Source: a virus. Taken from it: a stretch of DNA of 46,348 bases. The stretch spans positions 1 to 46,348 of the IMG/VR virus record IMGVR_UViG_3300029989_001049; one strand, written 5' to 3'. The notes beneath the pieces are model-generated. The model did not search any database and had not been told where the DNA came from. It worked only from the letters and a program-made list of their open reading frames with translations. A program made the position numbers and the translations under genes. Within the stretch, counting starts at the first letter, position 1. Each line of letters begins with the position of its first letter. Positions 267-16,497 of this stretch are shown here, piece after piece.

Positions 267-965
267 CTAGAACAGCCCAGAGCCGTCGATGGGCTTCGCG
301 GGCTTAAGTCGGGCGGTCTTTGAGGAACGAGGGGCCAGCGGGGCGGCATATGCGTCGAGGGCTCCCTCCCACCGCTGGAAGAACCTCGGCGCCTCTTCGA
401 CGGAGCAAGAGAGCCAGGCGCCGTAGTCTCGGTCGTTCAGGATCACCACCATGCGCTTCTCATCGTCGGGGCGGTGGAAGCGCTGCATCACCGGGTGGCC
501 GTCAGCGTTGACCGTCAGCATGGCAAAGGTGAAGACCTCCTGGCCATCGAGACCGCGCCAGCTGGTGTAGATACCAGCAATCCCCATCGGGGCCTGGCCA
601 GGCAGCTGGATCGCCCAGCGGACCGCTTTGCCGGTCTCCCAGCACGGCTCGAAGATGCGCTCGGCCGGAATGATGCAACGCTGGCCACGCTTCCAGGCAG
701 TACGGAAGCTGGGCTTTTCAGCCACCGTCTCAGACCGAGCGTTGTAGGTCTTTCGACCATAGGCCAGCTCAGTCGCGAAGTGCGGCAATAGGCCGAAGTG
801 GCCTACCTCACAGATCAAGTTGCCGCTGCCGGGCTCTGCCAACCTGATGAAGGGCGCTCGGCTCGTGGGCCATGTCTCAACTTGCGGAAGGTCGCCATTC
901 GGCTTGGCGCCAAAGTGGGCCAGCAGCCTGTCCAGGCTGGTGACCGCTTCGTAGTTTGAGCACAT
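267..965 (-). CDS. SRAP-domain protein (YedK/HMCES family)
   Basis: This 232-residue protein is a full-length SOS response-associated peptidase-family protein. The family forms a covalent thiazolidine link between the amino-terminal Cys2 and abasic sites in single-stranded DNA, shielding them from cleavage. All key residues are visible: Cys2 (MCSN start, exposed after Met removal), Asn75 in NARSE, Glu106 in IFEP and His164 in RFHRP. The gene is the last on the late strand, ending 96 bp from the left prophage end and separated from the tail genes by a 181-bp gap, so it may have its own promoter. In a phage it may protect abasic DNA during replicative transposition or counter a host glycosylase-based defence; both roles are inference. 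Confidence 0.93.
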   Translation of the reverse strand: MCSNYEAVTSLDRLLAHFGAKPNGDLPQVETWPTSRAPFIRLAEPGSGNLICEVGHFGLLPHFATELAYGRKTYNARSETVAEKPSFRTAWKRGQRCIIPAERIFEPCWETGKAVRWAIQLPGQAPMGIAGIYTSWRGLDGQEVFTFAMLTVNADGHPVMQRFHRPDDEKRMVVILNDRDYGAWLSCSVEEAPRFFQRWEGALDAYAAPLAPRSSKTARLKPAKPIDGSGLF

Positions 966-13345: not shown

Positions 13346-13752
13346 TGCTCGCGTCCCATCACTTTTGAGCCCGGATCAAACAGCACCGGCCCAATGCCCA
13401 CCACAGCCGGCACGTCGGCCGGCGCCTGCAGAGCGCACTTGCCGTCAGCCACTCTGGCCAGAAATGCCAGTGCGCTCTTGTAGGCCTCGGCCGTCACGTC
13501 ATCGGCACCAGAGCCCAACAGCCGGTAGTGGGCGATGGTGCAGCAATGCACCCGCAAGATCGCGGGCGGCGACGCCAGCGGCAGCGCCATGCGGCCCACC
13601 AGGTAGCCGTCGATCTCGTCCGATGCATCGGTCAAGGCGCGATCAAGCACCACCGAGACCACAGCGCCCGTCATCGGCGTGTTGATGTCGGTGAGCTGCA
13701 CCAGCCTCGGCGTGCCGAGGCGGTCGATCATGTCTTGAGCAGTAGCGTACAT
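13342..13752 (-). CDS. DUF1320 head-tail adaptor protein (Mu gp36-like)
   Basis: The 136-residue protein begins MYATAQDMIDRLGTPRLVQL, the hallmark start of DUF1320/Mu gp36, and continues with a helical bundle (DASDEIDGYLVGRMALPL and CCTIAHYRLLG). Proteins of this fold act as head-tail connectors that dock on the portal ring. The gene lies between the capsid group and the gp37-like gene, as in Mu. Confidence 0.9.
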   Translation of the reverse strand: MYATAQDMIDRLGTPRLVQLTDINTPMTGAVVSVVLDRALTDASDEIDGYLVGRMALPLASPPAILRVHCCTIAHYRLLGSGADDVTAEAYKSALAFLARVADGKCALQAPADVPAVVGIGPVLFDPGSKVMGREQ

Positions 13753-13761
13753 GGCTAGCGG

Positions 13762-14019
13762 TCAGGCGGGTTCGGGTTCGGCTTCGGCCGCTGCCTTCAC
13801 CTTGATGAAGTCAACGTAGTACTCGGCGCCAGGCTCGAAGTGCGCCGAGGCTTCAGCGTTCAGGATGCCGAGCGAGATCGAGCCGCCAGGCGAAGCCGCG
13901 AAGAACTTGTCGTTCTCGGGGCTGCCGCCAGTGACGGCATGCATCGAAACGCTCTTCAGCGTCTCGCCGGAAATGCTGGCGACCTTGAACTTCGCGCGAA
14001 CAACGGTAGTGCCGGTCAT
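13762..14019 (-). CDS. Conserved small phage protein, probably virion-associated
   Basis: The 85-residue protein (MTGTTVVRAKFKVASISGET start) is beta-rich and contains KFFAASPGGSISLGI and HFEPGAEYYVDF, which recur in unnamed phage proteins next to capsid genes. The ATG at 14017-14019 is chosen because GGAAA lies 9 nt upstream; a longer reading from 14055 would include hairpin sequence. A role as a decoration or connector protein is possible, but no family function is recognised. Confidence 0.7.
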   Translation of the reverse strand: MTGTTVVRAKFKVASISGETLKSVSMHAVTGGSPENDKFFAASPGGSISLGILNAEASAHFEPGAEYYVDFIKVKAAAEAEPEPA

Positions 14020-14274
14020 AGTGGGGTTTCCTTGTTTGAACAAAGGCCGGGGCATTCCTATTGATCGCGGCCGCCCCGGCGAGGCGTGTGCTCTCTCAGG
14101 CGCGCGGCGTCCACGAAGTCAACGCTGCTTGCCGACTGGAATTCGAAGGCCGGGGCCCAACCATCTCGACCGTTATCCGCCCCGGCGTGGGTTGGCAGTC
14201 AAAGTGACATCACAGGGCTCCCGCATGCAGCCGACGCACAGGCCGCAGCGATCAACGCCCGCTCGGGGTGGGTG
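14020..14274 (-). ncRNA. Structured RNA candidate: tandem hairpins downstream of capsid gene
   Basis: This 255-nt gap has no convincing gene. On the minus strand two hairpins have the identical 8-bp stem GCCGGGGC/GCCCCGGC: the first pairs 14179-14186 with 14149-14156 (22-nt loop), the second 14073-14080 with 14046-14053 (19-nt loop). Both stems continue into shared flanking bases (GG after the 5' arm, CTT after the 3' arm). A reported candidate RNA class named Mu-gpT-down lies downstream of gpT genes in Mu-like phages; membership here is untested. Tiny ORFs of 17 and 22 codons exist inside but lack clear ribosome sites. Confidence 0.5.
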
Positions 14275-14487
14275 TCAGGTTTCCGGTGTCGGATCGATAT
14301 CGACCTCTTGCACCACCAGCATCGGCTCGCCGTTGAGCGCCTTGAACTGGTCGTCGGTCAGCTCCGACAGCGGGATGGTGGTTGGCTCGCCGGTGAACTG
14401 GCGGCCCGCGCGGCAGAAGCTCTTGGGGCGCGAAGTGATCTTCAGGCCCTTGGTGGCTAGGCCGGCGGCTTTGGGTTTCGTGGCCAT
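14275..14487 (-). CDS. Small Mu gp35 / HI1506-like protein
   Basis: The 70-residue protein directly follows the capsid gene. It has a basic amino end (MATKPKAAGLATKGLKITSR), then SFCRAGRQFTGEPTTIPLSEL and DDQFKALNGEPMLVVQEVD. The FCRAGRxFT.EPT.I.LSEL..DQ...L..EP.L.V pattern is characteristic of small Mu gp35-type proteins next to gpT. Function is unknown; a minor head or chaperone role is a guess from position. Confidence 0.75.
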   Translation of the reverse strand: MATKPKAAGLATKGLKITSRPKSFCRAGRQFTGEPTTIPLSELTDDQFKALNGEPMLVVQEVDIDPTPET

Positions 14488-14531
14488 AGGCCCTCCGAAT
14501 CGGTGGTGGTGGATCAGTTAATCAGCGGCGG

Positions 14532-15428
14532 TCAGGACAGCCAGGGCACAACCATCAGCTCGGCCGTGCCTGCCATCACGTTGTCGGCGCCGGCTGCATT
14601 GCGCTGGGCTTTGATCACCTCCGCGCCCGCCTTCTCCAGGCTCGGTGGCACCACCAGCAGACTGCCGTTGGTGGCAAGGGGCAGGCCCGAACGGCTGGCC
14701 TTGAAGCTGCCCATCGCAGCCCGCGCGGCAGCGTAGTTGGTGGCGTCCAGCGTCTGCTTGCTGGCGTAGCCCATCTGCGGCAGGCCGTAGCCCACGTTCA
14801 CGCGGGCATCAACGCCCCAGCGGTACTTCTTGCGCATGAAGACCGACTCGTCCTCTTCGCCGATCATGGCGCGCGGCGTGTAGTCCTGGCGATTCTGGAA
14901 GATGATCGGCTTGATGGGGCGGCGCACATCCAGCAGGAACCACGGCGTGCCGCTGCCGCCTTGGAAGTTGCTGTAGGTGCTGACAGAGCCGTCCGGCAGC
15001 TCGATCGGATGGTCGGTGTCGAAGAAGTACTGGCCGTCATAGCAAAGCGTCGTGAAGCCAGCAGCCAGGGCGCCAAACACCAGTTGGTCAGGGTGCGTCC
15101 GCGCCTGGTCGCCCAGCATCTGCACCATCGGCTTGTAGATGCCGATCTTGTCGTCCGCCAGGTTGTCGCGGTCGACCTCGATGGTGTTCTCGTACGGCAG
15201 GTTCTTGATCGTGTAGTCGCTGGCCGACAGGCTCTGCAGCACGCGATCGCCAATCCACTGCCGGAAGCCAGGCAGCGAGTTGAGCCAGCCGTAATGCTCT
15301 TCGCTGGTCTCGCTCGGCACCTCGGTCGCAATGCGCAAGTACTGCGATGGTGCAGCGTCCCAGGCGCCCTGGAAGATGACGTTGAGGCCACGAAAGAAGT
15401 CGGCCAAAGTGGTTTGATTGATCAGCAT
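14532..15428 (-). CDS. T: Major capsid protein (Mu gpT-like)
   Basis: The 298-residue protein starts MLINQTTLADFFRGLNVIFQ, typical of Mu gpT, and carries the gpT-type YGWLNSLPGFRQWIGDRVLQ and NTIEVDRDNLADDKIGIYKP segments of the HK97-fold shell protein. The length is close to Mu gpT (305). It would form the icosahedral shell around the scaffold and be matured by the upstream protease. Gene order protease-cement-T-gp35 is as in Mu relatives. Confidence 0.95.
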   Translation of the reverse strand: MLINQTTLADFFRGLNVIFQGAWDAAPSQYLRIATEVPSETSEEHYGWLNSLPGFRQWIGDRVLQSLSASDYTIKNLPYENTIEVDRDNLADDKIGIYKPMVQMLGDQARTHPDQLVFGALAAGFTTLCYDGQYFFDTDHPIELPDGSVSTYSNFQGGSGTPWFLLDVRRPIKPIIFQNRQDYTPRAMIGEEDESVFMRKKYRWGVDARVNVGYGLPQMGYASKQTLDATNYAAARAAMGSFKASRSGLPLATNGSLLVVPPSLEKAGAEVIKAQRNAAGADNVMAGTAELMVVPWLS

Positions 15429-15500: not shown

Positions 15501-15914
15501 TTACGGGAACTCGACCCACACCGCGCCGCTGGCATCGACGTCGGCCACGGTGCCGGCCACGCTGCGCGTGGCGCCGCCGTTGGTCTTGGCCACCGTCTGG
15601 TCATCGACGATGTAGCAATTGGCGCCAATGTCGGCGCGCGTGATCTGGTCGGTCGACGCGCTGTTGAGCATCTGCCATGCACCGCGCCGAACGGGCACAC
15701 TCAGCGCACCATCGATGCCGCTGGTGTTGTCAACGGTGGCCTGCGCCACGCCGATGCCGCGCAGCGTAGTGGCCACGGCGCCCTTGGTGGCAAAACCGGT
15801 TGCATTGATGGCCACCATCGCGCCCTGGAAGATCTTGGCGTTGGCAGCAACCGGCAACAGGCGTTCATGCACCACGCGATGGTTGGTGGTGCGGGGTGCG
15901 GTCAAAGCGGTCAT
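15501..15914 (-). CDS. Capsid cement/decoration protein
   Basis: The 137-residue protein lies between the scaffold and gpT. It contains a hydrophobic strand-rich pattern, HERLLPVAANAKIFQGAMVA followed by GIGVAQATVDNTSGIDGALS and VPVRRGAWQMLNS, ending in VDASGAVWVEFP. This alternation resembles head-decoration proteins that trimerise on the shell like lambda gpD. It probably stabilises the capsid against DNA pressure. The family call is by pattern and position. Confidence 0.75.
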   Translation of the reverse strand: MTALTAPRTTNHRVVHERLLPVAANAKIFQGAMVAINATGFATKGAVATTLRGIGVAQATVDNTSGIDGALSVPVRRGAWQMLNSASTDQITRADIGANCYIVDDQTVAKTNGGATRSVAGTVADVDASGAVWVEFP

Positions 15915-15954
15915 GTGGTTCTCCTGGCGTGGTTCGGGCTGTGCAGCTCAGCGG

Positions 15955-16497
15955 TCAGGCCGGCTGCAGCGTCTTCAGATAGTCCTCATTGCTGATGCCC
16001 AGCTTCTGAGCGATCAGCACCTGATTGGCAGACAGGGCCGTGACAGGCACCTTCTTATCGAGCTGCTCACCGGCGCCGGCAGCCTGGCCGAGCAATCCCG
16101 GGATGACGGCCGTCTTGTCGATCACCGCAGACAGCGCCGCAAAGTCCGTGCGGCCCTGGTTGAGCAGCATGTCGCGATGGGCCGGGCCGAACTTGCCAGC
16201 CGCGATCGCGCCGTCCACCAGCGTGGTCAGCTTGCCTTCATTGAGCTGGGTGGTCAGCGCGGCGACCTGGGTCGTCAACTGCGACACGGCATCCAGCGTC
16301 TGTGCGCTGCCGGTCCGCAGGCTCTGCACGGCGCTGAGCGCAGCTGTTTCGTCGGCAGTGGCCGGCAGGCCCAGGGCGGTGACCAGGGCGCCTGGGATAC
16401 CGGGCTTGGCACGCAGGGCCGTGATGGCATTGGTGATGTCAGCATCGGTGGCAGTGGCCGCCAGGCCGAGCAGGGCAATGAGTTGGGTGCGATCCAT
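15955..16497 (-). CDS. Internal-start scaffold protein (Mu gpZ-like)
   Basis: In Mu the scaffold Z is made from an in-frame start inside I. Here Met at 16495-16497 (MDRTQLIALLGLAATATDAD) is preceded by GGAGAAG about 6 nt upstream, a far better ribosome site than at the full-length start. The 180-residue product is alanine-rich and helical with predicted coiled coil around its middle (LDAVSQLTTQVAALTTQLNE). It would copolymerise with gpT as the procapsid core. Confidence 0.65.
   Translation of the reverse strand: MDRTQLIALLGLAATATDADITNAITALRAKPGIPGALVTALGLPATADETAALSAVQSLRTGSAQTLDAVSQLTTQVAALTTQLNEGKLTTLVDGAIAAGKFGPAHRDMLLNQGRTDFAALSAVIDKTAVIPGLLGQAAGAGEQLDKKVPVTALSANQVLIAQKLGISNEDYLKTLQPA

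Follow-up and report, generated by a model that had tools for sequence, protein, structure and literature searches.

A conserved structured RNA with a predicted kink-turn at the gp35-gp36 junction of Mu-like phages

In phage Mu, the Com/mom leader forms a structure upstream of the start of a late gene, whose translation is controlled by way of a factor. Like this leader, the RNA described here is a structure lying ahead of the start of a late phage gene, and it differs from the leader in the gene concerned and in the structure itself. Another example, likewise situated near the gpT gene in Mu-like phages, is the structured RNA Mu-gpT-DE (RF03012), which spans 53 model positions and, in its printed alignment, forms a short stem whose 3' strand carries AGGAG before an AUG; unlike it, the present RNA is about 120 nt long and combines a hairpin with a predicted kink-turn and a hairpin with a conserved loop. 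Structured RNAs among prophage genes also include the hammerhead and twister-type ribozymes near genes of Mu-like phages, from which the present RNA differs in that no Rfam ribozyme model matched in the window (the whole stretch analysed, a 46,348-base virus record) or in the members of the class.

In the window, the genes flanking the gap in which this RNA lies are all encoded on the minus strand, in the order gpT, 70-aa gp35-like gene, gap, 85-aa ORF and gp36:

15428-14532, minus strand: gpT, major head protein (PF10124, E 2e-115)
14487-14275, minus strand: gp35-like gene of 70 aa, matching PHROG families of unknown function
14019-13762, minus strand: 85-aa ORF, matching the C-terminal end of phrog_6978 (unknown function)
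13752-13342, minus strand: gp36, head-tail adaptor gene (PF07030, E 3e-32; phrog_195, head-tail adaptor)

The gp35-like homologue in L193 matches Pfam FluMu_N, homologues of the 85-aa ORF in L163 and L164 are located in other contexts, and gp36 starts 9 nt past the stop of the 85-aa ORF. A sequence-only reading of this DNA had placed two hairpins downstream of the capsid gene, which is right as to direction, with the 70-aa gene intervening between gpT and the gap. Since the flanking genes are on the minus strand, the RNA is to be read on that strand. A coding gap was considered and rejected, as the only minus-strand ORF of at least 20 aa within it has 22 aa and the relatives show indels in linker and loop.

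Comparison among related loci shows a conserved structured RNA of about 120 nt on the minus strand, which would be carried in the late mRNA and is composed of a first hairpin (P1), a linker and a second hairpin (P2):

14264-14148, minus strand: conserved structured RNA of 117 nt (P1, linker and P2), from the R1 score (90 bits), homologues and covariation
14260-14215, minus strand: P1 hairpin with a predicted kink-turn, from the computed fold and the layout of the members
14214-14187, minus strand: linker, with CCAACC at 14195-14190, where relatives mostly have AACCUC (alignments A2, A4 and A6)
14186-14149, minus strand: P2, which is hairpin A, the upstream one of the two; pairs 84-91/125-133 of the covariation analysis; perfect GCCGGGGC/GCCCCGGC arms at 14149-14156/14179-14186 with 22 nt between them

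R1 is an RNA model made from 8 sequences, and its 90 bits in the window are to be read with the window being one of those 8. The RNA begins 10 nt past the gp35-like stop codon. Throughout the class, P2 keeps a near-constant, GC-rich stem of 8 bp and a conserved loop start, UGGAUA; the 22-nt loop in the window starts GGAUAAC, the class consensus being UGGAUAaCGGGaA..., and P1 is reduced or lost in five loci (L038, L077, L104, L188 and L201). A pseudoknot between CCAACC and GGUUGG, which would have 6 bp in the window, was discarded, since the mean longest complement across members is 4.48 vs 4.38 when shuffled.

The RNA is carried by about 30 related loci behind a small gp35-like gene, usually directly ahead of the Mu gp36 gene. 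It emerged as the common element on aligning the gp35-gp36 intervals of L039, L081, L001, L069, L119 and L132; the alignment of this gap in related phages that the sequence-only reading had proposed thus did reveal conserved pairing. In another viral contig, L162, the gap is 100% identical to that of the window, while L082, whose gpT is 86% identical, keeps hairpin A and the gap preceding it, is without the 85-aa gene and hairpin B, and has gp36 directly after hairpin A. At L082 580-666, the gp35-like gene has its start in the opposite orientation to its own end and to gpT, reflecting an inversion or an assembly chimaera. Outside its building set, R1 matched L173 (E 9e-18), L086 and near-copies (2e-10) and L020 (1.6e-8), and most other members came from R1 together with two pattern scans of viral contigs. 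When a second model, R2, was run across 401 genomes of one family, 10 matched, 7 of them new; all seven new loci lie 10-18 nt past a small gene, gp35-like or similar. In five of them gp36 follows (directly in four, after an inserted ORF in one), and in two other genes do. The element starts 9-18 nt past the gp35-like stop codon in nearly all members and ends, in most, 13-30 nt ahead of the next start codon, usually that of gp36. With strict filters, R1 matched G001 itself alone among 399 genomes of G001's order, and blastn did not find the element in the isolated phages of the phage collection.

In alignment A6, which holds 28 distinct rows, 94.6% of the cells are paired, both sides have changed in 16 of the 22 pairs, and the covariation score is 0.480 vs 0.141 for shuffled controls and no more than 0.098 with slid partners, none of five measures being reached by any shuffle (0/500); both A6 and A4 had been fitted to the structure of the model, a procedure that works in that structure's favour. 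In the MAFFT alignment A2 with a hand-specified structure, covariation was 0.310 vs 0.113. The folding energy of the gap is unremarkable for such GC-rich sequence (z about -0.2), and the case for the predicted structure is comparative, not energetic.

Judged from these alignments, P1 is predicted to contain a kink-turn. In the Kt-7 layout, a C-stem is followed by a 3-nt bulge, tandem G.A/A.G pairs and an NC stem (PMC12746442), and P1 shares each of these parts with Kt-7-type kink-turns, from which it differs in lying in a phage mRNA and in a variable 3b.3n position (U.G, C.C or A.G). In the window, the C-stem is formed by 14260-14257/14218-14215, the bulge is GUU (14256-14254), GA at 14253-14252 faces GA at 14220-14219, and the 3b.3n pair, U.G (14251.14221), leads into an NC stem with one bulged U, giving the string GGGC-GUU-GA-U...G-GA-GCCC. 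The same signature (C-stem, 3-nt bulge, GA facing GA, NC stem) was found by script in 21 of the 22 full-length members aligned, a count from which L200, whose 5' end is cut off, is excluded; the exception is L197, with CA. Read by eye, the layout also appears in seven of the seven loci later found by the RNA model alone. In A6, G12 is kept in 27 of 28 rows and A13, G47 and A48 in all 28, and the helix beyond them covaries.

The conserved RNA is undescribed, in that it is absent from the RNA library searched, Rfam 15. This library gave no match at gathering score in the window, and at E up to 10 only two chance-level matches in the element, to COG2827 and radC (E about 3), which were dismissed. 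Among the members, the single Rfam match is a C4 antisense RNA in L020 (RF01695, 60.7 bits, 673-760, minus strand), which lies away from the element, on the flank of a Thauera prophage. Mu-gpT-DE, which from its name is taken to be the 'Mu-gpT-down' class that the sequence-only reading had suggested, has a gathering score of 49 bits. Its model, searched without a positive control, matched neither 13700-14560 of the window at E up to 10, nor G001-G004, nor 42 further genomes or records, the tested records including those of L086, L119, L132, L173, L182, L193 and L196. On this failure in the gap and in the tested members, membership of Mu-gpT-DE was rejected; of the earlier proposal, the presence of a structured RNA downstream of gpT stands, borne out by conserved pairing among relatives, and its class does not. 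The best RF03012 hit anywhere in the window is a sub-threshold one of 20.6 bits (cut-off 49) at 15912-15960 on the minus strand, a short stem with AGGAG ahead of an ORF start at 15914.

The sequence-only reading had rested on hairpin A together with a second hairpin:

14046-14053/14073-14080, minus strand: hairpin B, with the same GCCGGGGC/GCCCCGGC arms, 19 nt between them and a different loop

Coordinates and shuffles bear out this pair of hairpins with identical 8-bp stems, differing loops and a spacing of about 103 nt: corresponding arms are 103 and 106 nt apart, and A and B are the sole same-arm pair within 500 nt across the 46-kb window. When the 259-nt gap was shuffled 20,000 times with its dinucleotides preserved, a same-arm pair of 8-bp hairpins arose once, and some 8-bp hairpin in 3,687 shuffles. 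Alternative pairing between the hairpins, by which they would act as a switch, is permitted by their interchangeable arms; it is nevertheless a very improbable reading, as the conserved element has one hairpin only and the relatives (L082, L173, L001 and others) are single-copy. Moreover, the sequence of the P2 arm hardly varies within the family, so that any copy is expected to have identical arms, which is enough to explain them. Nor does hairpin B score as a strand-specific element: its match to R1 is 11.9 bits (E 0.0019 in 248 nt) vs 10.5 bits on the opposite strand, and it was rejected as a clear second copy since the match rests on the stem and is nearly equal on the other strand. The flanks of B partly match those of A: read on the minus strand, both have CC-C ahead of the 5' arm, GG behind it and CTT behind the 3' arm. 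The ATG of the 85-aa ORF follows B at a distance of 26 nt, within the range usual for the element. We take hairpin B for a probable copy of the conserved RNA, degenerate or incomplete, that lies ahead of an inserted 85-aa gene.

The start of gp36 differs strongly between loci with and without the RNA. Where the RNA is present, the median anti-Shine-Dalgarno (anti-SD) energy of gp36 is -1.1 kcal/mol, with 2 of 19 at -4 or better, and gp36 lies a median of 126 nt from the upstream stop; where it is absent, the corresponding values are -5.2, 66% and 6 nt. The raw difference in SD has a p of 1.5e-7, and in the RNA-bearing loci the SD is retained by gp35 (100%) and gpT (94%). Despite this difference, a role of the RNA in replacing the SD is weakened, because independent, kinship-controlled pairs show no association between RNA presence and SD loss. 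In the RNA-free relatives L138, L143, L031 and L022, gp36 is also without an SD, 11-21 nt from the gp35 stop, while L020, L200, L216, L217 and L218 have the element ahead of SD-bearing or unrelated genes; a further RNA found at this junction in alphaproteobacterial phages (below) accompanies SD-bearing gp36 genes, which also speaks against an SD link. SD loss is a lineage trait. Given the SD-less RNA-free relatives and no tree-controlled link, what remains is that close coupling of gp36 is lost where the RNA is present. Termination-reinitiation is reported to be all but lost at a distance of about 20 nt (PMC10666635), and in a study mentioned there coupling tolerated long gaps (cited in PMC10666635).

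Since gp36 in these loci is mostly SD-less and too far from the gp35 stop to be coupled in the usual way, the element would either aid initiation or keep gp36 low. The reading tentatively preferred, which we hold to be plausible though short of probable, is that of a cis-acting mRNA element setting gp36 expression relative to the capsid genes. In this model, the element would stay folded in the interval between a ribosome that terminates and one that initiates, a putative factor would recognise the kinked P1 and the P2 loop, and its binding would set the frequency of initiation on the gp36 cistron in comparison with the abundant capsid genes. In the window phage, an insertion of the 85-aa gene together with hairpin B would have separated the element from gp36. 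The leader following P2, which is rich in U and poor in G, also speaks for this reading.

In the first 15 nt past P2 the U content is 30% vs 18% overall, and 7 of 25 cases have at least 5 U in 10, as would suit a transcription attenuator or weak intrinsic terminator in which P2 and this U-enriched stretch cut read-through into gp36. Such a role is unlikely, however, as the longest U run within 14 nt past P2 is 0-4 and often 1-2, the loop, at about 25 nt, is longer than expected of a terminator, and a terminator scan of the gap was negative; at P2, the stem plus U tract of an intrinsic terminator was not found.

Other RNAs occupy the same junction region elsewhere. In alphaproteobacterial Mu-like phages, an unlisted, multi-branched RNA that is unrelated to the kink-turn RNA lies at or near the gp35-gp36 junction, and tRNA-Met genes were found downstream of gpT:

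L105 4480-4585; L066 1607-1712; L041 4555-4675: multi-branched RNA
L059 4547-4650; L058 4540-4628; L049 4242-4355: multi-branched RNA
L041 4475-4549; L036 4586-4660; L079 4714-4791: tRNA-Met (CAT), downstream of gpT

In the multi-branched RNA, 14 of the 27 predicted pairs show a two-sided change in one or more of seven sequences. A copy at L093 6748-6852 lies further downstream, and the tRNA-Met gene of L041 lies inside the gp35-gp36 interval.

These unrelated RNAs of other lineages bear on the main rival to a setting of gp36 expression, namely an mRNA insulator or processing site, at which the element is cut or blocks nucleases so that the capsid and the connector/tail parts of the transcript get different lifetimes. 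The tRNA-Met genes would require excision from the transcript. As for ribozymes, hammerheads are found flanking prophage genes (PMC3088659), and near genes of Mu-like phages both hammerheads and twisters are enriched (PMC10085705). It is because of such RNAs at the junction and such ribozymes that this rival ranks first, and it is a possibility, if a fairly doubtful one, given that a mere barrier has no need of a conserved kink-turn, linker and loop. A position typical of ribozymes in Mu-like phages (PMC10085705, PMC3088659) and an unpaired core conserved in the linker and the P2 loop would also suit a self-cleaving ribozyme of an undescribed class; as against this, no Rfam family, ribozymes included, matches the element, kink-turns are not known to serve as a catalytic core, and the small variants L038, L077 and L104 are without a large P1, which makes such a ribozyme somewhat less likely still than an attenuator. 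A broader proposal, in which the gp35-gp36 junction is a recurrent site of unrelated functional RNAs and the kink-turn RNA either is itself catalytic or binds a phage factor, thereby splitting or timing the late transcript between capsid and connector and possibly representing a new class of self-cleaving ribozyme, stands at the same low level as the attenuator.

To our knowledge, phage structural mRNAs have seldom been searched for cis-elements. The late operon of Mu-like phages thereby gains a well-supported structured RNA with a kink-turn signature, placed at the boundary between genes that are needed in very unequal amounts. On the gp36 tree, the RNA has at least six supported gains or losses, and this repeated gain and loss, together with the other RNAs at the junction, makes control of the capsid-to-connector ratio directly testable.
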